Shown here piece after piece: positions 8,117-36,773 of a DNA stretch of 64,000 nucleotides; within the stretch, counting starts at the first letter, position 1; the number at the start of each line of letters is the position of its first letter. The position numbers and the translations under genes were made by a program. This DNA is from Rhodocyclales bacterium GT-UBC (GTDB lineage: Bacteria; Pseudomonadota; Gammaproteobacteria; Burkholderiales; Rhodocyclaceae): contig QXPY01000001.1 in NCBI GenBank assembly GCA_003583745.1, positions 372,001-436,000 on the forward strand. Direction: 5' to 3'. The notes under the pieces were generated by a model. That model did no database searches. It was not told the origin of the DNA and saw only the letters and a list, made by a program, of their open reading frames with translations.

Positions 8117-8863
8117 TCAAGGTTTTCCAGCCAGGAGCAATACCTTGGCCGCTTCGATGCGGTACTCGATGGCAACGCCCGCATCGTTCATGACGTCGAG
8201 CAGGAAGGCCTGCGGGTCGGTATGTCGCCCGACCGGCGCGATGGTCACGCCAGGTGCCGCAGACCCTTGGCCAATGTTCGGCTCTTCGCCGAACAACTCG
8301 CCGGCAAGCGTCTCGCCACGGTCCAGGATGGCCGCAGCCCGGGCGAAATCGGCCGCCTGGATACTGCTGCAGGCGGCTAACAGCGAGGCCTGTTTGTCCG
8401 TGCCGGGCGGCATGTCGAGACCAGCCTCGTCGGCAAACATGCTGCCCAGGCCGGGGTCGATGAAGGCCGACCATTTTTCCACTGTCTCGTCGAAACAGGG
8501 CGGCAACTCGATGAACTGGCCGCCTGCACCGATCGTCCCTGGATACAGCGCGATAACGTGCTCCGGCAAGTCATCGAGGTATTTGCGGCACAAGCCGCGC
8601 AGAAAGGCTTCACCCTGCCTCGCCGGCACCTCGTTCTTCAAGGAAAACCACAGTCGAAAGCCGTTGCGACTTGATACCGACACGGCCGGCGCCGGCAGAT
8701 CGAGTTCGCCCTGGACGGCCTCGTACAGCCTGGCCAGCTTCGGCCAATCGGCAGAACGTTGAATATCGATCAGAAGACAGCGAACTGTCTGCCCGAGCGG
8801 GTCGAGCTGCCCCGTGCCGGGCTGAAAATAAAGGCGCTGCAGTTCTCTTGCTAGTTTGTCCAT
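8117..8863 (-). CDS. conserved hypothetical protein, 248 residues
   Basis: Soluble protein with no signal or membrane segment. The middle contains APAVSVSSRNGFRLWFSL (about 59-76), which resembles the serine-glycine-histidine strand region of archaeo-eukaryotic primase-like proteins, but the catalytic aspartate pair is not evident. The C-terminus has a helical segment ending in ...LLLAGKP. It is monocistronic and convergent with the Tai4-like gene. I do not assign a function; the primase-fold resemblance is weak. Confidence 0.65.
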   Translation of the reverse strand: MDKLARELQRLYFQPGTGQLDPLGQTVRCLLIDIQRSADWPKLARLYEAVQGELDLPAPAVSVSSRNGFRLWFSLKNEVPARQGEAFLRGLCRKYLDDLPEHVIALYPGTIGAGGQFIELPPCFDETVEKWSAFIDPGLGSMFADEAGLDMPPGTDKQASLLAACSSIQAADFARAAAILDRGETLAGELFGEEPNIGQGSAAPGVTIAPVGRHTDPQAFLLDVMNDAGVAIEYRIEAAKVLLLAGKP

Positions 8864-8949
8864 GTTTCACCGGGATTCGAGCAGGCGGTGCTGCCTGCAG
8901 CCCGTAAGCCTACCGCAGCCCGCCTTGTCCGCCCAGTGTCCGTGGTCGT

Positions 8950-9888
8950 TCAGGCCTCCACGCCGTTCTGCGGCTTGAGCGCCGCCTTGAGCGCTTCCTC
9001 GCCCAGGTCCGGGCAGACCTTTTCGATGAACGCATGCGCGTAGCTGCGCAAGTAGGTGCCACGGCGCACGCCCAGGCGGGTGGTGTTGGCCGGGAACAGG
9101 TGCGGCACCGGGATCAGCTCCAGGTTGCGATCCTGTTCCGCATCGTAGGCAACGGAGGCGACGACGCCGACGCCCAGGCCCAGGCTGACGTAGGTCTTGA
9201 TCACGTCGGCGTCGATGGCGGAAAGCACGATGTCGGGCACGATGCCGGCATCGGCAAAGGCCTGGTCGACGTGGGCGCGACCGGTAAAACCTTCGTGGTA
9301 AGTGATGATCGGATACTCGCTGAGGGCTTCCAGCGTGATTTCACCGGCCTGCAGCAAGGGATGCCCCTGCGGCACGATGATCGCATGGTGCCAGGAATAG
9401 AACGGGAAGGAAGCAACCTCGGGTATCTTGGCCAGCCCTTCGGTGGCAATGCCGACGTCGGCCTGCCCGGAAACCAGCAATTCGCCGATTTCCTTCGGGC
9501 TGCCCTGCAGCAGCGTCAGGTGAACTTTCGGGTAGTCGGCCTTGAACCACTTGATGATCGCCGGCAAGGCGTAGCGCGCCTGGGTGTGCGTGGTGGCAAC
9601 GACGAAATGGCCGGTTTCGCGGCTGGCGAACTGGTCGGCGATACGGCGCAGGTTCTGGGTGTCGAGCAGGATGCGCTCGACCACTTCGGCCAGTTCCTTG
9701 CCCGGCTCGGTCAGGCCGAGCAGGCGCTTGCCGCGGCGAATGAAGATTTCGATCCCCAGTTCGTCCTCAAGATCCTTGATGTGTTTGCTGACCCCGGGCT
9801 GCGAGGTGTAGAGCGCGTTGGCCACCTCGGTCAGGTTGAAGTCCTGGCGAATGGTCTCGCGGACGATGCGCAGTTGCTGAAAATTCAT
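8950..9888 (-). CDS. cysB: LysR-family regulator CysB
   Basis: 312 residues, the length of CysB. The N-terminal HTH reads MNFQQLRIVRETIRQDFNLT then NALYTSQPGVSKHIKDLEDELG, a CysB/Cbl hallmark. The effector domain includes TTHTQARYALP, which in CysB forms part of the sulfate/N-acetylserine pocket, and SLGLGVGVVASVAYD. It activates sulfate and thiosulfate uptake and reduction genes under sulfur limitation. It lies 10 bp downstream of cysA and is probably co-transcribed. Cbl is the main alternative; linkage to cysA favours CysB. Confidence 0.9.
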   Translation of the reverse strand: MNFQQLRIVRETIRQDFNLTEVANALYTSQPGVSKHIKDLEDELGIEIFIRRGKRLLGLTEPGKELAEVVERILLDTQNLRRIADQFASRETGHFVVATTHTQARYALPAIIKWFKADYPKVHLTLLQGSPKEIGELLVSGQADVGIATEGLAKIPEVASFPFYSWHHAIIVPQGHPLLQAGEITLEALSEYPIITYHEGFTGRAHVDQAFADAGIVPDIVLSAIDADVIKTYVSLGLGVGVVASVAYDAEQDRNLELIPVPHLFPANTTRLGVRRGTYLRSYAHAFIEKVCPDLGEEALKAALKPQNGVEA

Positions 9889-9898
9889 TGTTTTTCTC

Positions 9899-10969
9899 CT
9901 AAGCGGCCAGCGGATTATTGTTTTGGAAGACTCGGATGGCGCGCGGGCGCAGCGATACGTGATCGCCTTCCTGCAGGCCGGAAGCGCTCAATGCTTCGCG
10001 CAGGACCGACACCTCGATCAATTCGCCATCCAGGCGGGTCAGTTCGACCTGTGCCAGCGGCCCGATGGCGATGACGCGGATGATCTTGGCCGGCAGGCCA
10101 TCACCCGGGGTATTGGCCGGCAGCAGATCGAATTCGTGCGGGCGAACGAAGCCGATCGCCTGCTCGCCTGGCTGATGTCCGTCGCCGACATGCAGGGCAT
10201 GCTCGCCAACGTGCAGATGCTGGCCTTTGACCCGGCCGTGAAAAAGGTTCACAGAGCCCAGGAAGCTGGCGACGAAAGGCGTCGCCGGGTGGTCATAGAC
10301 CTGGTCCGGCGTACCGATCTGCTCGACCTTGCCCTTGTTCATCAGGACGACGCGGTCGGAGACTTCCAGCGCCTCTTCCTGGTCGTGCGTCACGAACACG
10401 CTGGTGACGTGGATTTCGTCGTGCAATTGCCGCAGCCAGCGACGCAGTTCCTTGCGCACCTTGGCATCGAGCGCGCCGAAAGGCTCGTCGAGCAGCAACA
10501 CCTTGGGTTCGACCGCCAAGGCGCGGGCCAGTGCAATACGCTGGCGCTGGCCGCCGGAGAGCTGCGAAGGGAAGCGGTCAGCCAGCCATTCGAGTTGCAC
10601 CAGTTCGAGCAGGCGGGTCACTTTCTTCTTGATCTCGGCTTCGCTGGGACGGAACTTCCGTGCCTTGACGCGCAGACCGAAGGCGACGTTGTCGAAAACG
10701 GTCATGTGGCGGAACAGCGCGTAATGCTGGAAAACAAAGCCAACTTGGCGATCACGCACGTGACGGTCGGAAGCATCGTCGCCTTCGAGCAGGATCTGCC
10801 CGCGGTCGGCATAGTCGAGACCGGCAATGATGCGCAGCAAGGTTGTCTTGCCACAGCCGGAAGGCCCCAGCAGGGCCACGAGTTCGCCCGACGGAATGTC
10901 GATGGAAACGTCGTCCAGGGCCTGGAAGGCGCCGAACTGCTTGCTGATGTTACGGATGGCGATACTCAT
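9899..10969 (-). CDS. cysA: sulfate/thiosulfate ABC transporter ATP-binding protein
   Basis: 356 residues. Walker A is GPSGCGKTT (35-43), the signature LSGGQRQR and Walker [13 protein letters not shown] follow, with the H-loop in [11 protein letters not shown]-terminal TOBE-type regulatory region is present (about 240-350). It energises uptake of sulfate or thiosulfate through CysT/CysW. Those permeases and the binding protein are not adjacent: cysA is the first gene of its unit here and the binding protein gene lies at 37408, so the usual sbp-cysTWA order is broken up. Confidence 0.93.
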
Positions 10970-11152
10970 GTTCTGTTCTCCGAAAATGCGTTTTGCTGTT
11001 GCAATGCAGCATCTGACCGGCAGTTTAGGGTGCCGTGCATATGCAAAGAAATACTTAATATTTAAAAGCTAATTCAAATAGTGAATAAGCAAGTCCTGGC
11101 GCAACCCCGTTCGGGGCCAGGCCGAACGCTGCCTGTTACAGCGGGAAATCGG

Positions 11153-11560
11153 CTAGGCCTTGCCGGTGGAGGATGGATCGTTACCCGGCTGCACGAGATA
11201 ACCATGCGTGCGCAGCAGGCGAACGGCCAGCTCGATATTCTTCTTCGCCTTCTTGTGAACCGCCTGGCGGGGGCCCCCTTCAGGTTCCGGCGGGGCGAGT
11301 GCATAGCCGAATGCATTGAGCCAGGCAGTGATCTCGTTCAAGCCCTTCAGGCCGATGCCCTCGGCCTGCTGCAGACGGCGATACCCCAGTGCAGCAACCT
11401 CCTCGGGCTGAAACTCCGGGCGGTCGAAGATTTTGCACAGCGCATTGCGTTGCAGGGTGGGTAGTTTGTCCATCGGGCGCGACCCGCGTTCGCCCTGGCG
11501 AGGGGCGCTCGGTTCAGGCGTGCCGGCGGTATCCGGACAGTCACTCATGTCGTCAGCCAT
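11153..11560 (-). CDS. hypothetical protein with RNA polymerase alpha-CTD-like helix-hairpin-helix region
   Basis: 135 residues if the ATG at 11560 is used; ATGs at 11548 and 11473 are possible and no start has a strong ribosome site. The centre (about residues 50-85) reads EEVAALGYRRLQQAEGIGLKGLNEITAWL, close in pattern to the alpha C-terminal domain of RNA polymerase, where a helix-hairpin-helix (LLKTPNLGKKSLNEI type) binds UP elements. The ends are charged and probably disordered. It lies upstream of cysA on the same strand and is divergent from the ABC operon at 11812. Possible transcription modulator; function unproven. Confidence 0.6.
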   Translation of the reverse strand: MADDMSDCPDTAGTPEPSAPRQGERGSRPMDKLPTLQRNALCKIFDRPEFQPEEVAALGYRRLQQAEGIGLKGLNEITAWLNAFGYALAPPEPEGGPRQAVHKKAKKNIELAVRLLRTHGYLVQPGNDPSSTGKA

Positions 11561-11734
11561 AGGCAGCAGTTTCTGATGATGTATGTATATTCAAAATTGG
11601 TTTGTTGGCGAAGATTAGTCAGCCGTATCGGCAAATCGAACAACAAATTTCTGATATGGATATTCAGCGGCTCCAATCTGTAAAAACGGGCACCTCATGC
11701 CCGCTCATATATCGATCCGCGTATATCGACCAAA

Positions 11735-11750
11735 GAAGTAGTTAGTTCCG
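11735..11750 (+). promoter_or_regulatory. candidate sulfur-responsive promoter element before the taurine-type ABC operon
   Basis: GAAGTAGTTAGTTCCG lies 61 bp before the start codon. It matches 11 of 16 positions with the element at 19690 (GAATGCATTCGTTCCG), which sits at almost the same distance from its gene. See also 37322. A CysB/Cbl-type activator is a reasonable guess. Confidence 0.35.
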
Positions 11751-11811
11751 ACCCGCCGTGGGCTCCCGGCAAACTTCGTCCGTACAACAACTGACCCAGT
11801 CTGGAGAACCC

Positions 11812-12834
11812 ATGAAACTCAGCACCCACATCAAGGCGAGCATCGCCGTGCTGGCCCTGGCCGGCGGCATCGGTGGCGCTTTTGCCGATACCCTGAAGGT
11901 TGGCTACCTGCCGGTGACCGGCCACGGCAAATTCTTCGTCGCCAAGGAACAGGGCTTCTTTGCCAAGGAAGGCCTGGATGTCGAATTGATCGAATTCCAG
12001 AACTCGGCCGACGGCCTGAATGCCGTGGTGGCCGGCAAGCTCGATATCGGTGCCTTCGGTACCACGGCACCGGTGGCGCATATTTCCAAAGGCGCCAAGC
12101 TCAAGATCATCGGCGGCATCATGGGCGGCGACGCCGCCTTGATCGCCACGCCGGCCAACGCCAGCAAGATTGCCGGCGTCGCCGACCTCAAGGGCAAGAA
12201 GATCGCCACTGTGCGCATGGCTTCCGGCGATGCCGTGCTGCGCGGCGCCCTGAAGGACAAGGGCATCAACTGGAAGACCGACGTCCAGATTTTCGAACTG
12301 AAGAACCCGCCGGCCGTCATCGAAGCCGTCAAGTCCGGCCAAGTCGATGCTGGCTTGGTCTGGGGTCCGCATGACCTGCGCGCCGAAGATCAGGGCCTGA
12401 AGATCGTCATCCACTCGACCGACCTGCAACCGGGCCATCCGTGCTGCCGCCTGGTGGTTACCGAAGCCAGCCTGCAAAACCAGGCGACCTGGGAGAAGTT
12501 CGTTCGCGCCATCCTGAAGGCCGAGAAGTTCGCCGCCGAGAACAAGAAGGAAACGATCGAGTCGATCGCCAAGTACATCAAGCTCGATCAGCAACTGCTG
12601 TGGCGCGGCTACTACTCCCAATATCTCGACCAGTCGACCGATCCCAACGTCAAGGGCGTCAAGCACTTTGCCGACGTGATGGTGAATAGCGAATTCATCA
12701 CCACCAAGCCGGATCTCAATGCCGCGATCGATGCCCGCGTCTACGAGAAGGTGCTCAACCAGCTGGCCAAGGAAAGCCCGAACGACCCGTTCTGGAAGAA
12801 GCTCCAGAAAGAGTTCAAGCAGAAGGACGCGTAA
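11812..12834 (+). CDS. ABC transporter substrate-binding protein, SsuA/TauA/NMT1 family
   Basis: Start at ATG 11812, after GGAGAACCC, opens with a signal peptide (cleavage after GGAFA, about residue 24); 340 residues. The fold is the NMT1/SsuA type: LKVGYLPVTGHGKFFVAKEQGFF, then LIEFQNSADGLNAVVAGKLDIGAFGT. An unusual GHPCCRL segment sits near residue 215 and may be substrate-specific. It would capture an aliphatic sulfonate, taurine or related small acid in the periplasm. It overlaps the next gene (TAATG). No desulfonating enzyme (SsuD, TauD) follows, so the substrate is open. Confidence 0.88.
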   Translation: MKLSTHIKASIAVLALAGGIGGAFADTLKVGYLPVTGHGKFFVAKEQGFFAKEGLDVELIEFQNSADGLNAVVAGKLDIGAFGTTAPVAHISKGAKLKIIGGIMGGDAALIATPANASKIAGVADLKGKKIATVRMASGDAVLRGALKDKGINWKTDVQIFELKNPPAVIEAVKSGQVDAGLVWGPHDLRAEDQGLKIVIHSTDLQPGHPCCRLVVTEASLQNQATWEKFVRAILKAEKFAAENKKETIESIAKYIKLDQQLLWRGYYSQYLDQSTDPNVKGVKHFADVMVNSEFITTKPDLNAAIDARVYEKVLNQLAKESPNDPFWKKLQKEFKQKDA

Positions 12835-13619
12835 TGAACCACGGCCTCGTTCTGGACGGCATCGATTTTTCCTACGACGCCACCACCATCCTGCAGGGAA
12901 TCAATCTGACGATTCCGGCCGGGCAGTTCGTTACCTTGCTCGGGGCCAGCGGCTCCGGCAAATCGACCCTGCTCCGCCTGGTCGCCGGGCTGCAGTTTCC
13001 GGAACGCGGCCGGCTGAGCTGGAGCGATGCCCCGATCACCGGCCCCGGCCTGAATCGCGGTGTCGTCTTCCAGGATTACGCGCTGTTTCCCTGGATGTCG
13101 GTGGTCGACAACATCGCCATCGCCATCGGCAAGGCCCGGCCTGAAACCGCCAAGTCGGCGCGGCTTGCCGAAGCCCGCGAGTATCTGGTCAAGGTCGGCC
13201 TGGAAAGCGCCATCGGCAAGTACCCCTTCGAACTCTCCGGCGGCATGCGCCAGCGGGCGGCAATTGCCCGTGCCCTGGCGCTCGGCTCGCCACTGTTGTT
13301 GATGGACGAACCCTTCGGCGCGCTCGACCCGGTCAACCGGGCCCGGTTGCAGGATCTGGTGCTGGAAATCTGGGAAGCGGCAACGCCGCGCAAGACCATC
13401 GTCTTCGTCACCCACGATGTCGATGAGGCGCTCTATCTGGGCGACCGGGTGGTGATTCTCGGTTCGACGCCGGGCCGCATCATCGCCGACCTGCCGGTCG
13501 AATTTACCCGCCATCGCGAGCGGCGCAGCCTGTTCAACAGCGACGAATTCCATCAGTTGCGCGAATCGATCGCCGAGACGCTGGCCGCCGATACGCTGCG
13601 CCAGCTGGTTGCGGCGTGA
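12834..13619 (+). CDS. ABC transporter ATP-binding protein, SsuB/TauB type
   Basis: 261 residues. Walker A is [11 protein letters not shown] (about 40-50), the Q-loop is VVFQDYALFPW, the signature reads LSGGMRQRAAIARAL and Walker [13 protein letters not shown]. The combination with an NMT1-type binding protein and a BPD-type permease is that of sulfonate/taurine/nitrate importers. It overlaps the binding-protein gene by one base and the permease frame follows closely, so the three are translated from one message. Confidence 0.9.
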   Translation: MNHGLVLDGIDFSYDATTILQGINLTIPAGQFVTLLGASGSGKSTLLRLVAGLQFPERGRLSWSDAPITGPGLNRGVVFQDYALFPWMSVVDNIAIAIGKARPETAKSARLAEAREYLVKVGLESAIGKYPFELSGGMRQRAAIARALALGSPLLLMDEPFGALDPVNRARLQDLVLEIWEAATPRKTIVFVTHDVDEALYLGDRVVILGSTPGRIIADLPVEFTRHRERRSLFNSDEFHQLRESIAETLAADTLRQLVAA

Positions 13620-13630
13620 AGGAGAACCCC

Positions 13631-14467
13631 ATGCCTGAAACCCTTGCCCTCGAAACCCGCGAGGTATCGGTGACCCCCGTGCCGCATACGCATGACGAGC
13701 CGGCTCGCAGCGCCGTCTCCAGCCGCCTGTTGCCCGTTCTTGAGGCCTCGCTGATCTGGATATTCCTGCTGGGCGGCTGGTTCGTTGCTGCCGAATACCT
13801 GCCGCTGGGCGACAATCCGCTGGTACCCAGCCCGCTGATCACCGCCCGGGCTTTGTGGGATTCGCTGCCCGAACTCTGGCTGGGGACGATTTCCTCCTTC
13901 GGCATCCTGGTGCCCGGCTTCCTGCTCGCCAGCCTGGCCGGCATCGGCCTGGGACTGAGCATCGGCACCTCGCCGCGCCTGCAGCGTGCCTTTTTTCCCT
14001 TTGCCCGGGTTGCAGCGCCGGTTCCGCCGACCGTCTACATCCCCTACGCCATCGCCATCCTGCCGACTTTCAAGCTGTCTGCGATCTTCGTCGTCTTCAT
14101 CGGCGCCTTCTGGCCGATATTCCAGAATGCCGCAGCCGGCGCCCATGCGCTGGAAGAGCGCTATCGCGACAACGCGCGCATCCTCGGCCTGAGCGGTTTC
14201 GAATATCACCGCCGGGTCGTCTTCCCAGCCGCCTTGCCGCACATCTTTTCTGGCATGGCAGTTGGCCTCGGCTTCTCCTTCATCCTGCTCACCGTGGCCG
14301 AACTGTTTGGCGCCAATGCCGGCCTCGGGCGCTTCGTCCAGTATTACGCCGACTTCGCCGACTATCCGAAAATGGTTGCCGGCATTCTCTACACCGGCCT
14401 GGTGACCTTCCTGGCCATGACCGGTCTGGAAAAGCTCAAGCGCCGTGCGCTGTTCTGGCAACGCTAA
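13631..14467 (+). CDS. ABC transporter permease, SsuC/TauC type
   Basis: ATG at 13631 is preceded by AAGGAG; a GTG at 13616 is less likely. 278 residues with about six membrane segments: WIFLLGGWFVAAEYLP near 45, ISSFGILVPGFLLASLAGIGLGL near 85, then VPPTVYIPYAIAILPTF. The EAA-type coupling loop is ALEERYRDNARILGLSGFEYHRRVVFPAALP. It forms the membrane channel for the preceding two gene products. Confidence 0.9.
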   Translation: MPETLALETREVSVTPVPHTHDEPARSAVSSRLLPVLEASLIWIFLLGGWFVAAEYLPLGDNPLVPSPLITARALWDSLPELWLGTISSFGILVPGFLLASLAGIGLGLSIGTSPRLQRAFFPFARVAAPVPPTVYIPYAIAILPTFKLSAIFVVFIGAFWPIFQNAAAGAHALEERYRDNARILGLSGFEYHRRVVFPAALPHIFSGMAVGLGFSFILLTVAELFGANAGLGRFVQYYADFADYPKMVAGILYTGLVTFLAMTGLEKLKRRALFWQR

Positions 14468-14471
14468 GACC

Positions 14472-15551
14472 ATGCCGTCAGCTTTCATCACCCGCCTGCT
14501 GCGCGGTAGCGCCCTGGCCTTGCTCTGCGCCGGCCTGCTCGGCTCGGCCCAGGCCGCCCTGTTTGCCCGCAGCAGCCTCGACCTGCAGGCGGAAAGCCGT
14601 GTCGCAGCAGCCGAGGGCAAGCAACTGGCGGTTTTCATGACCCTGCCGGATTGCCCGGGCTGCCTGGATATGGCGCGCAATGTTCATCCCTTGCCGGGCG
14701 TGGAAAAGGCTTTCGGGCGGAAATTTCGTACCGTTCAACTCGATATTTCCGCCAACGAGCGGCTGATCGACCCCGCCGGGCGTGAGACCACACCTGGCGC
14801 GTTTGCCGACCGCCTGCGTGCATTTGCGACCCCCTCCTACGCCTTCTTCGACAAGGATGGCCAAATACGCTACCGCTTTACGGGCACGCTCGATGCACGC
14901 GGCCTGGTGCAACTGGGCGACTATGTCCTGGCCGCCCGTTACGAGCAACGCCCGTTCGTTGCGCCGCCCCGGCAGACCGCCGGCCAGCCGGCCTTGCGCC
15001 TGCATGCCGAATTGCCCGCCGCCACCCTGCCCCTGCACCCCGAGTTCACCCTGGCGGCAACCGACGGCAAAACCCGCCATCTGAGCGATTTTCGCGGGCT
15101 CGCCGTGGCGCTCACCGTCGGTTATACGCAATGTCCTGATGTTTGCCCGACCACGCTGGCCGAGTTGAAGGCAGCGGTCGAAGCCCTGCCGCTGCGCCTG
15201 CGGGGGCAGATCCAGGTCTTGTTCGCGACGCTCGACCCGGAGCGTGATGGCTTGCCGCTACTCAAGGAGTATGCCGACGCCTTCCGCCCCGAAGGCGGCC
15301 GGCCGATTCTCGGCCTGCGCGGCAATGCCGCCGAAACGGCGAGCCTGATCCGCCAATTGCAACTGGTCGCCGACAAGCAGCCTTCGGCTTCGATGGGTTA
15401 CACCCTCGACCATACGGCCGGCGTCTTCCTGTTTGCCGCCGACGGCCGTCTGCTCGGCCTCTCGCCCTACGGCCAGCGCATCGACAGACTGAGCAGCGAT
15501 CTGGCTACCCTGGCCGGCACCGCCCGGCCTCATTCTCTCGCCCACCACTGA
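14472..15551 (+). CDS. exported thioredoxin-like / SCO (SenC) fusion protein
   Basis: 359 residues with a signal peptide (cleavage after GSAQA, about residue 28). Residues 35-160 form a thioredoxin-like domain with C61-P-G-C64, similar to SoxW/DsbD-gamma types. Residues 180-350 form a SCO1/SenC domain with YTQC221PDVC225PTT and H314 (LDHTAGVF), the copper ligands of SCO proteins. SCO proteins deliver copper to cytochrome oxidase CuA or act as thiol reductases. Here a thiol reductant and a copper chaperone are joined in one chain. It starts 4 bp after the permease and is 13 bp before the CoA-transferase genes. No oxidase gene is near. Confidence 0.85.
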   Translation: MPSAFITRLLRGSALALLCAGLLGSAQAALFARSSLDLQAESRVAAAEGKQLAVFMTLPDCPGCLDMARNVHPLPGVEKAFGRKFRTVQLDISANERLIDPAGRETTPGAFADRLRAFATPSYAFFDKDGQIRYRFTGTLDARGLVQLGDYVLAARYEQRPFVAPPRQTAGQPALRLHAELPAATLPLHPEFTLAATDGKTRHLSDFRGLAVALTVGYTQCPDVCPTTLAELKAAVEALPLRLRGQIQVLFATLDPERDGLPLLKEYADAFRPEGGRPILGLRGNAAETASLIRQLQLVADKQPSASMGYTLDHTAGVFLFAADGRLLGLSPYGQRIDRLSSDLATLAGTARPHSLAHH

Positions 15552-15564
15552 ACGGAACATCGAA

Positions 15565-16569
15565 ATGCCCAGCAACAAACTGCTGCCTCTGGCCGAGGCG
15601 GTCCGTCGCTATACTTGGGACGGCATGCAATACGCCAGCGGCGCCGCCCTGCCGGTCGGCTCCGACGCCATCGTTTTCGGACGCGAGCTGCTGCGCCAGC
15701 AGCGCCGTGACCTGCACGGCATCTTCCACTGCAACACCCAGCAACTCAACCTGCTGGCCGGCGCCGGCGCCGCGACCAAGGCGGAATGCGGCTTTTCCGG
15801 ACTGGAAGTATTCGGCTTCGCCAACGGCCTGCGCCGTGCCGTCGAATCCGGCCAACTGGCGCTGGAGGATTACTCCAATCTGGCCATGGCGGCCCGCCTG
15901 CTCGGCGGCGCGATGAACTGGCCCTTCGTGCCGGCCACCGTCAATATCGGTTCCGACATCCAGGACCGCAGCGCCTTTGCGCCGGACGAATATCCGTCGA
16001 AACGCAAGATTCCGAGCGTCACCGACCCGTTCTCCGGCCGCGAGATCGGCGCCTTCAGCCCGCTCAAGCCGGACCTCGCCGCCATCCATGTCTCGCTGGC
16101 CGATCCGCTCGGCAACGCCATCATGCTCGGTACCGAATGGAGCCGCTTCGAGCTGTCGCGCGCCGCCAAGAAAGTCGTGCTGATAGCCGATGCCATCGTC
16201 GATACCGACTGCATGCGGCAGTTCCCGAACCTGGTACGCATCCCCGACATCATCGTCGAAGCCGTCGTCTATTGGCCCTTCGCCGCCTGGCCGCAATCCT
16301 CGCCGGGGCTCTACGACGTCGATGAAAGCCATATGAAATTCATGAACAAGGCGCTGGCCACCGAACAAGGTACCGCCGACTATGTGCGCGACTTTGTCGA
16401 TAGTTACAGCGACATCGACAGTTATCTCGACCTGATCGGCCGCGACACCATCGCCAAACTGAGCGACAGCGCCACCAGCTTCCTGCTCGATCCCTTCCGC
16501 CAGTGGATCAAGACCCCGGCCGAGATTGCTGCCCTGAGTGCCGAGAACAGCGCGGAGGTGGCCGCATGA
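15565..16569 (+). CDS. CoA-transferase subunit A, glutaconate CoA-transferase/IpdA family
   Basis: 334 residues of the class I CoA-transferase alpha fold (GctA/IpdA). Visible family segments include the N-terminal YASGAALPVGSDAIVFGREL, TVNIGSDIQDRSAF and KVVLIADAIVDTDCMRQFPN. With the following gene it would form an alpha-beta enzyme that moves CoA between acids, or, as in IpdAB of steroid degraders, hydrolyses a cyclic beta-keto-acyl-CoA. The ATGA overlap with the next gene supports an obligate pair. The substrate is unknown. Confidence 0.85.
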   Translation: MPSNKLLPLAEAVRRYTWDGMQYASGAALPVGSDAIVFGRELLRQQRRDLHGIFHCNTQQLNLLAGAGAATKAECGFSGLEVFGFANGLRRAVESGQLALEDYSNLAMAARLLGGAMNWPFVPATVNIGSDIQDRSAFAPDEYPSKRKIPSVTDPFSGREIGAFSPLKPDLAAIHVSLADPLGNAIMLGTEWSRFELSRAAKKVVLIADAIVDTDCMRQFPNLVRIPDIIVEAVVYWPFAAWPQSSPGLYDVDESHMKFMNKALATEQGTADYVRDFVDSYSDIDSYLDLIGRDTIAKLSDSATSFLLDPFRQWIKTPAEIAALSAENSAEVAA

Positions 16570-17372
16570 GCACCGTTGCCAACGAAAACCTGCCCTACAC
16601 CCGCCAGGAAATGATGGCGATTGCCACCGGTCGCGAACTGCGTGACGGCGAACTGGCGATCTTCGGCGTCGGCCTGTCGATGCTGGCCGGCTACTTCGCC
16701 CAGGCCCATCACGCGCCCAACATCCGCGCCATGACCGAAGGTGGCGTCTATGGTGCCACGCCGGTTGGCGGCCTGCCCTGGGGCATCGAGTGCAACCGCA
16801 TTTCGGCCAATGCCACCAGCTTTACCAATGCCATCGACGCCCTCGGTTTCCTGGTGGCATCAGGCCGTTGCGACGTCGGCATCATCGGCGCGGCGCAGGT
16901 CGACAAGTTCGGTAACGTCAATACGACCGGTATCTGGGAAGGTGAAATCGGCGACAGCTACCGGCTGCCCAAGACCCGCCTGACCGGTGCCGGCGGCGCC
17001 AACGACATCGCCTGCGGGGCCGGGCGCGTCGTCATCATGGTGACGCACGAGCCGAAGCGCTTTGCCGACAAGGTCAGCTACATCAGCTCGCCGGGCTATC
17101 TTGAAGGCGGCAATGCCCGCGAACGCTACGGCTTCGTCGGCAAGGGGCCATCGGCGATCATCACGACGCTGGGCATCCTGCGTCCGGACCCGGTCAGCAA
17201 GGAGTTCATTCTCGAAGCCTATTACGCCTTCTCCAGCATCGAGGAGATCCTGGCCAGTACCGGTTGGGATCTGAAAGTCTCGCCGACCGTCCATGTCGTC
17301 CCCGAGCCGACGCCGGAAGAGCTGGCCGCCTTGCGTCGGGTCGATGCCACCGGTGCGTTGCGCAAGGCCTGA
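16566..17372 (+). CDS. CoA-transferase subunit B, glutaconate CoA-transferase/IpdB family
   Basis: The start at ATG 16566 overlaps the stop of subunit A (ATGA); 268 residues. Features are LPYTRQEMMAIATGRELRDGE at the start, GVYGATPVGGLPWGIECNRIS, the GAAQVDKFGNVNTTGIWEGE region and the GAGGANDIACGAGRVVIMV loop. The family includes GctB, which carries a catalytic glutamate, and IpdB, which lacks it; I cannot decide between them from sequence. It forms the partner of the preceding gene. Confidence 0.85.
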   Translation: MSTVANENLPYTRQEMMAIATGRELRDGELAIFGVGLSMLAGYFAQAHHAPNIRAMTEGGVYGATPVGGLPWGIECNRISANATSFTNAIDALGFLVASGRCDVGIIGAAQVDKFGNVNTTGIWEGEIGDSYRLPKTRLTGAGGANDIACGAGRVVIMVTHEPKRFADKVSYISSPGYLEGGNARERYGFVGKGPSAIITTLGILRPDPVSKEFILEAYYAFSSIEEILASTGWDLKVSPTVHVVPEPTPEELAALRRVDATGALRKA

Positions 17373-17375
17373 GGC

Positions 17376-17936
17376 ATGAGCGAAAAAGGCGTCGACGCCA
17401 ACTACCGCTTCATCGCCGCCTACCAGGAGGTCAATGCCCGTATCGTCCAGCGTCACCAGGCACTGACGCTCTACGTGACCTTGACCGCCAGCTTGCTGGC
17501 CGGCCTGTTTGCGCTGCACCCGGGTGAATCCAGCCGACAGTTGCCGGTCGAGTGGCTGGTCTTCGCCTTTCCGGTGACCACCGTTTGCCTCGCCTTTCTC
17601 AACTACAAGACCGAACGCGCCATCACCAACCTGCGCTCCTTCCTGGCCAGCCTGGAGCGCATTGCCAACGCCCATCACCAGTTGCCCAGCTACAACACCG
17701 ATCCGCGCTGGTCGAGCGGCGTCAACAAGGTGCGGCGCTTCCACGACTACGCGGCGGCGGTGCTGGCCAGCGGCGCCAACGCCATCGGTATCGGCACGGT
17801 GCTGCGCCTCTACCCGGAACGTCTGGCCGACCGCCCGCTGCTCACCGGCGTACTGGTCGTCGCCGCCCTGCTTTCGATCCTGGCTTTGCTCGTCATCCCG
17901 CGCTGGAGTTACCAGCCACCGGCCGAAGCCAGCTAA
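17376..17936 (+). CDS. hypothetical inner-membrane protein, 4 predicted membrane segments
   Basis: 186 residues, three bases after the CoA-transferase stop. Hydrophobic segments are at about 31-47 (TLYVTLTASLLAGLFAL), 60-77, 128-147 and 153-174. A basic cytoplasmic-type loop (NYKTERAITNLRSFLASLERI) lies between segments 2 and 3. I do not recognise the family; the layout recalls small SLATT-type or scaffold membrane proteins without clear homology. Its position inside the operon suggests a role in transport or in anchoring the pathway. Confidence 0.7.
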   Translation: MSEKGVDANYRFIAAYQEVNARIVQRHQALTLYVTLTASLLAGLFALHPGESSRQLPVEWLVFAFPVTTVCLAFLNYKTERAITNLRSFLASLERIANAHHQLPSYNTDPRWSSGVNKVRRFHDYAAAVLASGANAIGIGTVLRLYPERLADRPLLTGVLVVAALLSILALLVIPRWSYQPPAEAS

Positions 17937-17956
17937 TTCACCTCTACGGAGTCAGC

Positions 17957-18751
17957 ATGTCCGAAGTCCTTTCCGAAGCGCTTTTCCTGCGCCATGACGA
18001 CAATGGCGTCACCACCCTTACCCTGAACCGGCCGCAGGCCCGCAACGCGCTGTCGCAAGGCATGCTGCGCGCCCTGCTCGACGCCTTTGCGGCGATTGCC
18101 GCCGACGACAGCGTGCGTGTCGTCATTCTCGCCGGCGCCGGTCCCGCCTTCTGTGCCGGTCACGACCTCAAGGAACTGCGCGCCGCCGACTATGCGCGCG
18201 AATACACCGAGCAGCTGTTTGGCGACTGCGCCGAACTGATGCAGGCCATCGTCAAACTGCCCAAGCCGGTGATCGCCCGTGTTCATGGCATCGCTACCGC
18301 TGCCGGCGCCCAGCTGGTGGCCAGTTGCGACCTCGCCGTGGCGGCCGACGATGCCCGCTTTGCGACGCCCGGCGTCAATATCGGCTTGTTCTGTTCGACC
18401 CCGATGGTGGCGCTGTCGCGCAACGTTGCCCCGAAGCACGCGATGCAGATGCTGTTGGGCGGCGATCTGATCGATGCCCATACCGCCTGGCGTTTCGGGC
18501 TGGTCAACGAACTGGTGCCGGCCGCCGACCTGGAAAGCCACACCCTGGCCCTGGCCCGCAAACTGGCCAGCAAGTCGCCACTGACGCTGGCCATCGGCAA
18601 GGAAGCCTTCTACCGCCAGGCCGAACTGCCACTCGCCGAGGCCTACGCCTATACCAAGGACGTCATGGTCGCCAACCTGCAGGCGCAGGATGCCCAGGAA
18701 GGCATCGGTGCCTTCATCGACAAACGCGTACCGACCTGGTGCGGCCGCTAG
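17957..18751 (+). CDS. enoyl-CoA hydratase/isomerase family protein (ECHDC3-like)
   Basis: 264 residues of the crotonase fold. The CoA-binding segment is FCAGHDLKELRAADY, and the oxyanion-hole loops are AGAGPAFCAGHDL and HGIATAAGAQLVASCDLAVA. The segment DARFATPGVNIGLFCSTPMVALSR is typical of ECHDC3-type members, which usually lack one of the two catalytic glutamates; in that position glycine/leucine replace the usual acid (NIGLFC). The reaction may therefore not be plain hydration. It follows a CoA-transferase pair and probably acts on its CoA product. Confidence 0.85.
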   Translation: MSEVLSEALFLRHDDNGVTTLTLNRPQARNALSQGMLRALLDAFAAIAADDSVRVVILAGAGPAFCAGHDLKELRAADYAREYTEQLFGDCAELMQAIVKLPKPVIARVHGIATAAGAQLVASCDLAVAADDARFATPGVNIGLFCSTPMVALSRNVAPKHAMQMLLGGDLIDAHTAWRFGLVNELVPAADLESHTLALARKLASKSPLTLAIGKEAFYRQAELPLAEAYAYTKDVMVANLQAQDAQEGIGAFIDKRVPTWCGR

Positions 18752-18758
18752 TTCCGCG

Positions 18759-19604
18759 ATGCCGCACTGGATCGCCGCATTCCCGATCGAGGCCAGCCGT
18801 CCCCGCCAGGGAAGCCTGCGTAACTGGCTCGATCACCTGGTCATCAATACCGGTTTTGCCACCGATACGACCGCCGAGCTGTTTGCTGCACTGGGCTTTA
18901 CGCTGACCCCGCGCGGTTACCACTCGCTGGGGTCGATCAACCATCTGATCATGTTCGCCGGTCATTACCTCGAACTGATCGGCTTACCCAGAGATGGGGC
19001 AGTCTTGCGCCAGGAGATCCTCGACAGTCCGCCTGGTATCGATGGTCTGGTATTCGGCTCGGCGGACGCGGCAGCAACCCATGCCGCCCTGGTCACGGCA
19101 GGGTTTCAGGTGCAACCGGTGCAACGTTTTTCGCGTCCGGTAGAGATCGACGGCGAGTCATCGGCCGCCGTATTCCAGACCGTACGTCTGCTGCCCGGGC
19201 AGTTTCCGGCCGGGCGCATTTATTTTTGCCAACATGAAACGCCGGAACTGGTTTGGCGGCCCGAGTGGTTGCACCATCAGAACGACGTCAGCGGCATTGA
19301 GCAGCTGACGATTGTCAGCCGGGCGCCGGCTGAGGCAGCTCGACGCTATGCCGAGCTGGGCAAGATCGACGGTGGCTTCAAGCTGGCGTTTGTTGACGAA
19401 GCCGGCCTGCGGGAAAGCTTTGGCGACCTGGCGCCCCGTGAGCCGGGCCAGGCTGAACGATTCGCCGCCATCACGTTTCGGGTCGGCTCGCTCGACAAGA
19501 TGGCTGATAGGGTGCGGCAACTCGACTTGCCTCACGCACTGGAAGCCGGGCGGCTTCTTGTCGGAATAAGCGCCCCTCCCTGCTTGCTCGAATTCGTTTC
19601 CTGA
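18759..19604 (+). CDS. glyoxalase-like (VOC superfamily) protein, paralogue 1
   Basis: 281 residues; ATG at 18759, seven bases after the hydratase stop. The N-terminal half carries LDHLVINTG, FTLTPRGYHSLGSINH and YLELIGL, a VOC-type beta-alpha-beta-beta-beta module with histidine and glutamate at metal positions. The second half is a diverged repeat. The same protein type recurs at 24865 with the same motifs. VOC enzymes are metal-dependent isomerases, lyases or dioxygenases. It closes the operon that starts at 11812. The reaction is unknown. Confidence 0.8.
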   Translation: MPHWIAAFPIEASRPRQGSLRNWLDHLVINTGFATDTTAELFAALGFTLTPRGYHSLGSINHLIMFAGHYLELIGLPRDGAVLRQEILDSPPGIDGLVFGSADAAATHAALVTAGFQVQPVQRFSRPVEIDGESSAAVFQTVRLLPGQFPAGRIYFCQHETPELVWRPEWLHHQNDVSGIEQLTIVSRAPAEAARRYAELGKIDGGFKLAFVDEAGLRESFGDLAPREPGQAERFAAITFRVGSLDKMADRVRQLDLPHALEAGRLLVGISAPPCLLEFVS

Positions 19605-19689
19605 GGCCTTATTTTCAATCGATTGAAAAATGTGGAATCGCTTCTGCTGCAAGACTTTTCATCCAAGTATCCGGCGCATAAACATATAA

Positions 19690-19705
19690 GAATGCATTCG
19701 TTCCG
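19690..19705 (+). promoter_or_regulatory. candidate sulfur-responsive promoter element before the peptide-type ABC operon
   Basis: GAATGCATTCGTTCCG, preceded by ATATAA, lies 57 bp before the start codon. It shares 11 of 16 positions with the element before the sulfate-binding-protein gene (37334, GAATTCCTTCGTTTTT) and 11 of 16 with that at 11735. Confidence 0.4.
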
Positions 19706-19762
19706 GGAATAAAACGCGGGTCATAGACTGCGCCATCTCTTAAAGCCTGATGGAGCAACAGA

Positions 19763-21379
19763 ATGAAACTGACCCGCCGCGAATTGCTGCTATCCACCGG
19801 TGCGCTCGCCGCATCGGCCCTTTTCCCGCCGCTGCTCTATGCGCAACAAGGCGCCAAGACGCCGGCGCCGCGCAAAGGCGGCATCCTGAACGTGCACCTG
19901 GGTTCCGAGCAGCGCATCCTGAATCCGTCCCTGCGCGCTTCGACCGGCGTCTATATCGTGACCAGCAAGATCATCGAATCGCTGGTCGATCTCGACGCCA
20001 ACGGCAAGGTCGTGCCGGTGCTGGCAACTTCGTGGAATGCTTCGAAGGACGGCAAAACGGTGACCTTCAAGTTGCGCGAAGGGGTGACCTGGCATGACGG
20101 CAAGCCCTTCACCTCAGCCGACGTGCAATACAACGCCCTGGAGTTGTGGAAGAAGCACCTAAACTTCGGCACCGCTCTGCAGCGCAACCTCGAAGCCGTC
20201 GATACCCCGGACAAATACACTGCCGTCTTCCGCTACTCGCGCCCGATTCCAACCGAACTGCTGCTGCGCGGCCTGGCCGATCTGGGATACGTCGTGCCCC
20301 GGCATGTCTTCGAAGGCACCAATGTGCTGGAAAACCCGGCCAACACGGCACCGATCGGGACCGGTCCGTACAAGTTCGTGCAATACGAACGCGGCCAATT
20401 CATCATTGCCGAGCGCAATCCGAAATACTGGCGCAAGGATCAGCCTTACCTCGACCGCATCGTCTGGCGCATCATCACCGACAAATCGGCCGCCACCGCC
20501 GCCATCGAAACCGGCCAACTGCAGCTCAGCGCCTATTCCCAGCTCACCCTGGCCGACCTCGATCGCCTGAAGAAGAACCCGGAATTCGTCGTCACCAGCA
20601 AGGGCCTGGAAGCCAATCAGTTCAACAACACGCTCGAATTCAATTTCCGCCGCAAGGAAATCGCCGACGTCCGCGTCCGCCGCGCCATTGCGCATTCGAT
20701 CAACGCGCAATTCTTCATCGACAATTTCCTCTACGGCCAGGGCAAGCCGGCGACCGGTCCGATCCCCTCGACCTCGACGGCGTTTTACCCGACCGACAGC
20801 AAGCAACCTTACCCCTACGACAAGAAGCGCGCCGAAGCCCTGCTCGATGAAGCCGGCTACAAACGCGGCGCCGGCGGCATCCGCTTCAATCTCAAGCTGG
20901 TGGTCATCCCCAACGGCGAAGACGTGCCCTTGCTCGGCACCTTTATCCAGCAGTCGCTGGCCGAAGTCGGCATCAAGGTCGATATCGCCACCTACGACTA
21001 TGCCGGCGCCCTGTCGGCGGTGTACAAGGAACACAATTTCGACATCGCCACCGGCTGGCACCAGTACCGCGGCGACCCCGCCGTATCGACCACGGTATGG
21101 TTCCGCTCGGGCAGCCCGGCCGGTTCGCCCTGGACCAACCAGTATGGCTGGCAGTCCGACAAGGTCGACAAGCTGATCGACGATGCGGCCTCCGAAGTCA
21201 ATCCGGTCAAGCGCAAAGCGCTCTATGCCGAGTTCGTCCGTGAGGTGAACGATCAACTGCCGATCCATTTCGTCACCCAGCGCGAGTTCTACTCGGTGTT
21301 CAGCAAAAAGCTGCAGAACAGCCATAACACCAGCCGCTGGCCTTCCAGCGACTGGTCTGATGCCTGGCTGCAAGCCTGA
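19763..21379 (+). CDS. ABC transporter substrate-binding protein, peptide/opine family 5
   Basis: 538 residues. The N-terminus has a twin-arginine-like motif (LTRRELLLSTGALAASA), so export may go through Tat. Family 5 features are WHDGKPFTSADVQYN, GTGPYKFVQYERGQF and RVRRAIAHSINAQFF. Members bind di/oligopeptides, glutathione, opines or nickel. It starts the operon of two permeases and a fused ATPase. The sulfur-type element upstream makes glutathione or another organosulfur compound a candidate substrate; that is inference. Confidence 0.88.
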   Translation: MKLTRRELLLSTGALAASALFPPLLYAQQGAKTPAPRKGGILNVHLGSEQRILNPSLRASTGVYIVTSKIIESLVDLDANGKVVPVLATSWNASKDGKTVTFKLREGVTWHDGKPFTSADVQYNALELWKKHLNFGTALQRNLEAVDTPDKYTAVFRYSRPIPTELLLRGLADLGYVVPRHVFEGTNVLENPANTAPIGTGPYKFVQYERGQFIIAERNPKYWRKDQPYLDRIVWRIITDKSAATAAIETGQLQLSAYSQLTLADLDRLKKNPEFVVTSKGLEANQFNNTLEFNFRRKEIADVRVRRAIAHSINAQFFIDNFLYGQGKPATGPIPSTSTAFYPTDSKQPYPYDKKRAEALLDEAGYKRGAGGIRFNLKLVVIPNGEDVPLLGTFIQQSLAEVGIKVDIATYDYAGALSAVYKEHNFDIATGWHQYRGDPAVSTTVWFRSGSPAGSPWTNQYGWQSDKVDKLIDDAASEVNPVKRKALYAEFVREVNDQLPIHFVTQREFYSVFSKKLQNSHNTSRWPSSDWSDAWLQA

Positions 21380-24864: not shown

Positions 24865-25716
24865 ATGTCAAATCAACTTCCCCGCCTTGATCACGTCGTC
24901 ATCAACGTTACCCACCAACTCGACGAATCGCTGGCGCAATATCGCCGCCTCGGCTTCGTGCTGACCCCGCGCGGCCACCATTCGCTCGGTTCAAGCAACC
25001 ATCTCGCCATTTTTGGCGACGACTACCTTGAACTGCTCGGCTACGAGCCCCAAAACGCCGAACGCGCCGCCAGCTTCTGGGGCAAGCTGCAAGGCTTGTC
25101 CGGCCTCGTTTTCAAAACCAGCGATTCGGACGCACTCTTTGCCGACTTGCGCCAACGGGGTGTCCGTCTCGACGGCGAGGCGCCGCAGGCCTTTTTCCGC
25201 CCGGTCGAGTTGCCTGACGGCAGTTCGCGCGATGCGCGTTTCCGCACGGTCCGTCTCGACCCGGCAGCGATTCCCAATGGCCGTCTCTTCTTCTGCCACC
25301 ATCTCGATGCCGATCTCGTCTGGCGCAAGGAATGGCAGAGCCATGCCAACGGCGTCGAGGCGATTACCGGCGCCATCGTCGAAGCACGCGATCCGGCGAC
25401 GTCGATCAAGTTGTTGGCGCAAACCTTCGGCGCCGAGCACGTCACGGCCATTGACGGCGGTTGGCGCCTGAATGCCGGCAAAACCACGGTCGACTACCTG
25501 ACGCCGCAAGCCGTCGCTCAGCGTTTTGGCGACGCGGCCGTGCACAGTCCCAACGAGCATGACCGCAAGGTGGCATTGGTCTTCAGAACCGCCTCGCTGG
25601 CCCAGGCGCGTGCTGCCCTGGTTGCAGGACAGGTGGCCTTCCGCGAGGAAAAAGCCGGCGAAATTCTGGTTCCAGCTAGCGAAGCCTTCGGCGTCGCCCT
25701 GGTCTTTAGCGAATAA
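24865..25716 (+). CDS. glyoxalase-like (VOC superfamily) protein, paralogue 2
   Basis: 283 residues. It shares with the protein at 18759 the segments LDHVVIN, GFVLTPRGHHSLGSSNH, DYLELLGY and the RTVRLDPAAIPNGRLFFC region, so the two are paralogues. Two VOC-type halves are visible. It starts 28 bp after the ATPase and is followed at 15 bp by an oxidoreductase. Its reaction is unknown. Confidence 0.8.
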   Translation: MSNQLPRLDHVVINVTHQLDESLAQYRRLGFVLTPRGHHSLGSSNHLAIFGDDYLELLGYEPQNAERAASFWGKLQGLSGLVFKTSDSDALFADLRQRGVRLDGEAPQAFFRPVELPDGSSRDARFRTVRLDPAAIPNGRLFFCHHLDADLVWRKEWQSHANGVEAITGAIVEARDPATSIKLLAQTFGAEHVTAIDGGWRLNAGKTTVDYLTPQAVAQRFGDAAVHSPNEHDRKVALVFRTASLAQARAALVAGQVAFREEKAGEILVPASEAFGVALVFSE

Positions 25717-35426: not shown

Positions 35427-36773
35427 ATGGCCCACCTCTCCGATGCAGCGACAGACCGCCCGTACTGGGACGAAAAACTCGAAACCCAGTCGCGCGCCGA
35501 CTGGGATGCGCTGAAACTCGACCTGCTGCAAAAGCACCTGCAGCACGCTTACGCCAATTCGCCCTATTACCGCGCCAGCTTCGATGCGGCCGGGGTGCAT
35601 CCCGACCAGGTCAAATCGCTCGACGACATTCGCCGCTTCCCCTTCATCGACAAGAAGGTGTTGCGCGACCGCCAGACCGCCGTGCCGCCCTTTGGCGACC
35701 TGGTTGCGGTGCCCGAGCGCGACATTGTCTATATCTCGGCCTCCAGCGGCTCGACCGGCGTACCCACCGCTTCGCCGTTCACAGCGCGCGATTTTGACGA
35801 CTGGATGGACTACGAGGCCCGCCAGTTCTGGTCATCCGGCCTGCGTCCGGACGACCGTTACTGCCACTCGCTGAATTTCTCGCTGTTTGTCGGCGGCCCT
35901 TGCGTACTGGGTGCCCAGAAGCTCGGCGCGCTGTCGATCCATGCCGGCACGGTACCTTCCGAGCGGCTGCTGACCATCATTCGTCAGTTCCAGGCCACGG
36001 CCATCTGGACGACGCCGTCCTATGCCTGGTATCTCGGCGAAACGGCGATCAAGGAAGGCATCGACCCGAAGAAGGATCTCAACATCAAGCGCATTTTCGT
36101 CGCCGGCGAGCCGGGCGGCTCGATTCCCGAAACCCGGCAGCGCATCGAAGCCTTGTGGGGCGCCTCGGTCTATGACTACTACGGTTTGTCGGACATTTTC
36201 GGTTCCTGCGCCGGCATGTGCGAAGAAAAGCACGGCCTGCACTGGGCCGAGGATCACATCCTGGTCGAAGTGCTCGATCCGGAAACCGGCCAGCCGGTAC
36301 CGGAAGGTGGGCGCGGCGAACTGGTGCTGACCACGCTAAAGAAGAGTGCCCGGCCGATGATCCGCTTCCGTACCGGCGATATCGTTTCCTTTACCTCGGA
36401 CCCCTGTGCCTGCGGCCGGACCTCGATCCGCATGCTGGGCACCCACGGCCGTCTCGACGACATGCTGATCATCAAGGGCGTCAATATCTTCCCCAGCGAT
36501 ATCGAAGCCATCGCCCGCCGCGACCATGCCTTGAGCGGCGAATACAAGCTGATCGTCGAACGGGAAAACCATCTCGACCACCTGACCGTCGAAATCGAAC
36601 GCGCTGCCAGCGATGCTGGCCAGGATGCCGAACTGGCCGCACGCTTTGCCGGCCATCTCAAATCAGTGACCGGCGTCGCGGCACGCATTGTCATCCTGCC
36701 GCCCGACACCCTGCCCCGCGCCACCCACAAGGCGAAGCGGGTCGAGGATCGCCGGCAGCACGTCTGGAGCTGA
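35427..36773 (+). CDS. phenylacetate-CoA ligase family AMP-forming enzyme (PaaK-like)
   Basis: 448 residues, the size of PaaK. ATP motif ISASSGSTGVPTASPFT (about 109-125), the YDYYGLSDIFGS segment in place of the adenine-binding YGLSE, and RTGDIVSFTSDPCACGRT with two cysteines. ILLIIKGVNIFPSDIE-type hinge follows. It activates an aromatic or arylacetic acid to a CoA thioester. It sits three bases before a small hydrolase gene and away from other aromatic genes, so the true acid is unknown. Confidence 0.85.
   Translation: MAHLSDAATDRPYWDEKLETQSRADWDALKLDLLQKHLQHAYANSPYYRASFDAAGVHPDQVKSLDDIRRFPFIDKKVLRDRQTAVPPFGDLVAVPERDIVYISASSGSTGVPTASPFTARDFDDWMDYEARQFWSSGLRPDDRYCHSLNFSLFVGGPCVLGAQKLGALSIHAGTVPSERLLTIIRQFQATAIWTTPSYAWYLGETAIKEGIDPKKDLNIKRIFVAGEPGGSIPETRQRIEALWGASVYDYYGLSDIFGSCAGMCEEKHGLHWAEDHILVEVLDPETGQPVPEGGRGELVLTTLKKSARPMIRFRTGDIVSFTSDPCACGRTSIRMLGTHGRLDDMLIIKGVNIFPSDIEAIARRDHALSGEYKLIVERENHLDHLTVEIERAASDAGQDAELAARFAGHLKSVTGVAARIVILPPDTLPRATHKAKRVEDRRQHVWS

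Follow-up and report, generated by a model that had tools for sequence, protein, structure and literature searches.

The window, a stretch of 64,000 nucleotides, contains a gene in which a thioredoxin-like domain and a SCO copper-chaperone domain are fused in one protein, and this gene lies inside a sulfonate-type transport and CoA-transferase operon. We consider that the fusion serves this operon, in organosulfur uptake or assimilation, as a soluble periplasmic tandem-dithiol relay, with a probability of roughly 0.5. A membrane DsbD would reduce the CPGC pair of the thioredoxin domain; once reduced, CPGC would then maintain the SCO-domain CxxxC pair in the reduced state, or would itself act on a sulfur compound in the periplasm or on the ligand of the substrate-binding protein (SBP), or would do both. 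The SCO domain would be a lineage-specific accessory that may use or buffer copper. A narrower version, which we regard as possible though not probable, is that Sco was recruited from cuproenzyme assembly into an intramolecular thioredoxin-to-Sco relay dedicated to periplasmic organosulfur handling for uptake, with sulfur chemistry, or a copper enzyme belonging to sulfur metabolism, as its target in place of a respiratory oxidase.

The preliminary description of this DNA had proposed the two domains in one exported protein, and the profile searches agree with it. Pfam assigns Thioredoxin_2 to residues 45-145 (E 2.6e-11, 44.2 bits against a cut-off of 27) and SCO1-SenC (PF02630) to residues 190-326 (E 1.2e-30, 106.7 bits against a cut-off of 22.8); since both domains score above their cut-offs, neither match is due to chance. 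The translation also places the motifs at the residues first reported, with CPGC from residue 61, CPDVC from residue 221 and a histidine at 314. The only cysteines are those at 19, 61, 64, 221 and 225; Cys19 is within the putative signal peptide, and the predicted mature protein contains exactly four cysteines, all of them in the CPGC and CPDVC pairs. Hydrophobic windows occur at residues 5, 13 and 14 only, that is, in a single N-terminal segment ending in A-Q-A, and the alignments show that A-x-A followed by ALF at the putative cleavage site is retained in most homologues. The protein looks like a secreted, apparently soluble one whose signal is cleaved, rather than a membrane-anchored one. 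An alternative GTG start at 14445 would give 368 aa and overlap the permease gene; it is the ATG start that yields the recognisable signal peptide. The reverse complement of 14472-15551 is broken by stops in the frame examined, and an origin of the fusion by chance or artefact is ruled out by the scores of both domains, the open frame and the recurrence in other genomes.

Table 1. Features of the window and, in the last line, of related loci (window coordinates unless a locus is named)
Feature	Position	Strand	Basis
Thioredoxin–SCO fusion gene, 359 aa plus stop	14472..15551	+	translation, Pfam, homologues
Putative signal peptide, residues 1-27 (…GSAQA/ALF), no lipobox at C19	14472..14552	+	read from sequence
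Thioredoxin-like domain, CPGC 61-64, cis-Pro type T120-P121	14556..14957	+	Pfam Thioredoxin_2, alignments, DsbD-gamma/DsbC-like structures
SCO domain, C221, C225, H314	15030..15524	+	Pfam SCO1-SenC, PDB sequence matches, fold matches
ABC substrate-binding protein, SsuA/NMT1-like	11758..12834	+	PF13379 4.4e-33; TIGR01728 just under cut-off
ABC ATPase, nitrate/taurine/sulfonate type	12834..13619	+	profile matches
ABC permease	13616..14467	+	PF00528 1.4e-20
CoA-transferase subunit A, glutaconate type	15565..16569	+	PF01144; 1poi_A 1.3e-26
CoA-transferase subunit B, glutaconate type	16566..17372	+	PF01144; 1poi_B 7.2e-43
Enoyl-CoA hydratase family protein	17963..18748	+	PF00378 2.2e-59; 82% to copy in sister operon L040
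CysB-family regulator	8950..9888	-	NF009327 484 bits, cut-off 402
Sulfate ABC ATPase, CysA type	9899..10969	-	TIGR00968 411.5 bits, cut-off 342.75
PaaK-like CoA ligase	35427..36773	+	tblastn 87% to Dechloromonas hortensis (L113) homologue
Encapsulin 2A/desulfurase, with CysE and rhodanese	L051:2398-5176; L123:15168-17940; L048:186-2955; L149:11260-14020 (G020); L152:8791-11605 (G081)		

An AlphaFold model of the fusion, built from an 11-row alignment (mean pLDDT 81.3, pTM 0.53), predicts two separate thioredoxin-fold domains whose mutual placement is undefined at this pTM; residues 301-314, including His314, have pLDDT values below 50. The SCO half of the model fits solved Sco proteins with Z scores of up to 19.9, and it shares with the SCO1/SenC chaperones the PF02630 match above cut-off, the CxxxC motif with its histidine, and the fold. 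The N-terminal half fits DsbC-like and DsbD-gamma structures with Z scores of 13-15 (4fyb_B, 15.1; 2kuc, 14.1; 1vrs_D, 13.9), with which it has the CxxC motif, the cis-Pro position and the fold in common, and the sequence profile of this domain likewise matches DsbD-gamma and DsbC-like chains in the PDB. The thioredoxin-domain profile has 13 PDB matches, of which none is TlpA, and the TlpA sequence matches of the full fusion in the PDB fall on the SCO half only. Unlike the DsbD-gamma and DsbC-like thioredoxins, the domain described here is the operon partner of an ABC importer, and some members of its family, though not all, carry a C-terminal SCO domain.

According to the accessible text of the report on Bradyrhizobium, the separate thioredoxin TlpA reduces ScoI (PMC6696091; PDB 4txo), so a reductant fused to Sco is chemically sensible. 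The likeness lies in the pairing of a periplasmic thioredoxin, as reductant (putatively so in the fusion), with the CxxxC cysteines of Sco, and the SCO half of the model fits 4txo_D with a Z score of 17.5. On the other hand, TlpA and ScoI are two membrane-linked proteins that serve a CuA oxidase, whereas the fusion is one polypeptide, and its thioredoxin domain resembles DsbD-gamma and DsbC-like proteins. The thioredoxin CxxC pair and the CPxxCP/CPDVC and DHTAG motifs of the SCO domain are retained in all eight intact fusions examined, each of which has precisely four cysteines, arranged as two pairs. By analogy with TlpA, and with only these two pairs present, the earlier suggestion that the fusion would supply its own reductant is plausible. 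In addition, a DsbD_TM gene occurs in all nine fusion genomes searched, and electrons would pass from DsbD through the thioredoxin domain to the SCO domain.

The genes of the operon are closely packed: 4 bases separate the permease stop from the fusion ATG, 13 bases separate the fusion stop from the CoA-transferase ATG, and the two CoA-transferase subunits overlap in ATGA. The SBP scores 162.5 bits against the SsuA family TIGR01728, a near miss that falls below the cut-off of 163.5, and judged by its sequence it is clearly related to the sulfonate-binding superfamily. The best PDB match of both CoA-transferase subunits is the glutaconate CoA-transferase 1poi. Weaker matches of subunit A are 6co6 and 6con, which we take to be IpdAB-type chains; whether the enzyme might be an IpdAB-type hydrolase is left open. 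The operon resembles the Ssu/Tau sulfonate ABC operons in its SBP, ATPase and permease, which are of that superfamily, and in the CysB-family regulator adjacent to it in the window; it differs from them in its CoA-transferase, enoyl-CoA hydratase and thioredoxin, which are present in place of a desulfonating oxygenase, none having been recognised in the operon. A loose analogy is the catabolism of 3,3'-thiodipropionate in Variovorax, where CoA activation and enoyl-CoA hydratase homologues act on a sulfur-containing acid; by contrast, the accessible part of that account has no thioredoxin or ABC transporter terms (PMC6370202). As initially described, the operon is without an oxidase gene: a scan of 12 window proteins around it (8117 to 21379) revealed no oxidase subunit. 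Nor was any copper enzyme recognised next to the operon.

CysB and CysA are the only close-by sulfur genes in the window; the sulfate Sbp lies about 20 kb off, and MetY was not found in the window. A PaaK-like homologue directly follows the operon in D. hortensis and is about 17 kb downstream of it in the window; the window counterparts of the genes found after or around the operon in D. hortensis (PaaK-like, hydrolase and sulfate-binding) are located at approximately 35.4-38.4 kb. An oligopeptide/nickel-type ABC cluster appears in the window as an insertion that splits this D. hortensis-like gene order; it is flanked by a Glyoxalase_3-domain protein (18690-19604) and an open reading frame (24865-25716) that looks similar by eye.

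A search for the fusion in 150 genomes of the family matched 34 at E <= 1e-30. Both domains were covered in seven (G000, the window genome, and G020, G127, G081, G031, G042 and G098), the thioredoxin domain alone in two (G094 and G052), and the SCO domain alone in the remainder. The fusion thus recurs at full length, and this recurrence, together with further records from named genomes, rules out a one-off gene fusion or assembly error. A thioredoxin-profile scan of named genomes gave 13 loci, among them one short and unrelated-looking (L057); the others are in Dechloromonas hortensis, Zoogloea, Thauera linaloolentis, Accumulibacter, Azospira, Oryzomicrobium and two unclassified MAGs. At the level of the class, 2 of 321 genomes matched the fusion at E <= 1e-45, namely the window's own and one SCO-only match; at the level of the phylum, 23 of 289 matched at E <= 1e-35, and among the matches listed all but the window's own start at or beyond profile position 180. 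No second genome matched both domains in the 321 class or 289 phylum genomes, in searches that scored, for each genome, just a few top candidates and that thioredoxin–SCO fusions of unrelated sequence could escape. Among plasmids, 353 records match the fusion and none covers 80% of the query. For the CoA-transferase, searches beyond the family, over 185 genomes of the class and 250 of the order, matched one genome each, both times the window's own; in the window's own genus it is present in 2 of 12 genomes, so the gene is patchy. This patchiness, the near miss of the SBP and the scarcity of sulfur genes close to the operon in the window speak against the proposed relay in organosulfur uptake.

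In the order, 76 of 399 genomes have thioredoxin matches at E <= 1e-15: three family genomes match at E <= 2e-59, and the rest are distant. Fifteen of the distant regions were examined; in eight of them the thioredoxin forms one family, which was set aside as a different locus because most members have genes that, on reading their sequences, look TolC-like and HlyD-like as neighbours. These thioredoxins (L129-L136; for example, L130:5656-6219) are periplasmic, about 170 aa long, and make up a separate clade in other families of the order. A distant sister locus in G026 (L143:4536-6065) has SBP, ATPase and permease genes, next to them a thioredoxin that carries CSEC and a hydrophobic segment at its N-terminus, and after this a PaaK-like gene; it gave no CoA-transferase match.

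A search with CoA-transferase subunit A matched 23 of 297 family genomes at E <= 1e-60, none of them with a value weaker than 1e-160, and all 23 neighbourhoods were inspected. Thioredoxin is directly upstream in 17, as a fused-type gene in seven (G000, G503, G020, G127, G081, G031 and G891, the last with an in-frame stop) and alone in ten; in one further locus (G056) the gene begins inside SCO at the contig edge, and in the other five thioredoxin was not found. The fusions of G042 and G098 lie in an ABC operon without CoA-transferase, with MetY downstream. The SBP, ATPase and permease genes precede the thioredoxin in every thioredoxin locus that has upstream sequence, and full-length fusions are always behind a sulfonate-type ABC permease where upstream sequence exists. 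The thioredoxin-only genomes G052, G955 and G920 have no SCO match. Because ten sister operons have thioredoxin alone and an Accumulibacter copy lacks the CxxxC half of SCO, the thioredoxin is judged to be the constant part; in these comparisons it is a conserved component of the operon and the SCO domain a lineage-specific accessory.

The fusion could also be an ordinary copper-delivering Sco for NosZ CuA, CuA oxidase or cbb3 CuB, with a built-in reductant, whose place in a sulfur operon is due to coincidence or shared regulation; this seems unlikely. Its copper ligands are all retained, and a purely thiol role is therefore not favoured over copper binding; the accessible text of PMC9145763 links Sco to the assembly of CuA and, in some bacteria, of cbb3; and among the nine fusion genomes, five have a full COX2 domain (PF00116 at E <= 1e-6) and six, all except G127, G031 and G891, the NosZ propeller (PF18764). 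However, all nine fusion genomes encode one or more SCO proteins besides the fusion, and the sulfur operon is the location of the fusion at every locus seen. COX2 was not detected at this threshold in G020, G127 and G081, and the only COX2 match in the window genome coincides with NosZ. G127, assembled in one contig and 100% complete, has the fusion but gave no match to COX2 or to NosZ at the thresholds applied, so by co-occurrence neither the oxidase CuA nor the NosZ CuA is likely to be the general client; this supports the earlier suspicion that the protein may have another task than delivery to the oxidase. A knockout whose only phenotype is loss of CuA oxidase activity had been named as what would refute that suspicion, a point that is moot since no CuA cytochrome oxidase was detected in the window genome. 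Compared with the SCO1/SenC chaperones, this Sco differs in its fusion to thioredoxin, in being apparently soluble rather than anchored, in its sulfur operon, and in its occurrence in a genome without a detected CuA target (G127).

It is also rather improbable that the SCO domain is a copper guard, which would bind periplasmic copper and spare the thiols or sulfide of the operon from poisoning or oxidation while the thioredoxin keeps its cysteines ready. The retained copper ligands fit such a function, as do the histidine-rich tails of some thioredoxin-only forms: at least three histidines occur in the last 25 residues of five of ten such forms and three of eight intact fusions. At these frequencies, however, the tail is not general, and a conserved C-terminal histidine tail as a metal site was rejected; moreover, SCO is missing from many sister operons, and the loci annotated contain no recognisable gene for copper resistance.

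When 35 SCO domains are placed in a tree, all nine from fusions group together in a single clade (98/95), to which the G056 copy is sister. On a tree of SBP, ATPase and permease (21 loci), fused versus thioredoxin-only requires four changes, at least three of which are forced by well-supported branches. A single gain of SCO followed by repeated loss would be the simplest account; transfer of the whole fusion gene between lineages is possible. In Ca. Accumulibacter contiguus (L051:9908-10702), an in-frame deletion has removed the SCO half bearing CPDVC and left the thioredoxin intact, and in G891 an in-frame stop lies between the two domains, possibly an assembly error since this genome is a MAG. 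In three pairs, dN/dS by simple count is 0.23-0.28 for the thioredoxin, 0.15-0.40 for SCO and 0.55-0.90 for the linker; the low values indicate that both domains are constrained by purifying selection. Amino-acid identity is higher in SCO than in the thioredoxin in all three (0.80 vs 0.62, 0.81 vs 0.75, and 0.87 vs 0.75). Although the changes on the tree, the Accumulibacter deletion and the G891 stop might suggest that SCO is a decaying, dispensable passenger of a thioredoxin that works alone, its low dN/dS, its higher identity, the invariant active residues of the eight intact copies and the uncertain status of the stop make this very doubtful.

A literature search, with most subscription journals beyond its reach, found no description of a thioredoxin–Sco fusion or of its operon, and in the accessible part of a survey of the thioredoxin fold class (4,082 sequences) only glutaredoxin domains are combined with another thioredoxin-fold domain (PMC2757866). 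The fusion is built from two known domain families, and their combination is apparently new. As far as the accessible texts go, it is still debated whether Sco is a copper chaperone, a thiol reductase or both (PMC6696091, PMC9145763). A natural thioredoxin–Sco fusion set against sister operons with thioredoxin alone offers a direct comparison for separating these two roles, and its value lies in the sulfur-operon setting and in its occurrence in genomes where no CuA cytochrome oxidase was detected. Because the fusion is found in a sulfur-uptake operon and not beside a respiratory oxidase, it suggests that Sco domains are usable outside oxidase assembly.

Within a single bacterial family this sulfur operon is conserved, apparently without having been characterised so far, and its neighbourhoods are rich in sulfur genes, with a gene content that varies by genome. 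MetY (at least 60% to the L040 copy) is downstream in 13 of 27 loci examined; FccAB is near three loci (L113, L121 and L123); CysB and CysA are present in L045 as in the window; and CysE and rhodanese occur in several related loci, around which a CoA_binding protein, a PaaK-like ligase and a serine hydrolase are likewise found. In five loci, genes for a family 2A encapsulin shell and for the cysteine desulfurase that it carries as cargo lie about 2 to 10 kb from the thioredoxin(-SCO) operon; the association of encapsulin with rhodanese and serine acetyltransferase is already known from the accessible text of PMC8346489. Finally, a CoA-transferase locus without thioredoxin (L120:61-6344) has genes for an AprA-like flavoprotein (NF006131), a HEAT-repeat protein and a ferredoxin-domain protein beside a second ABC set.
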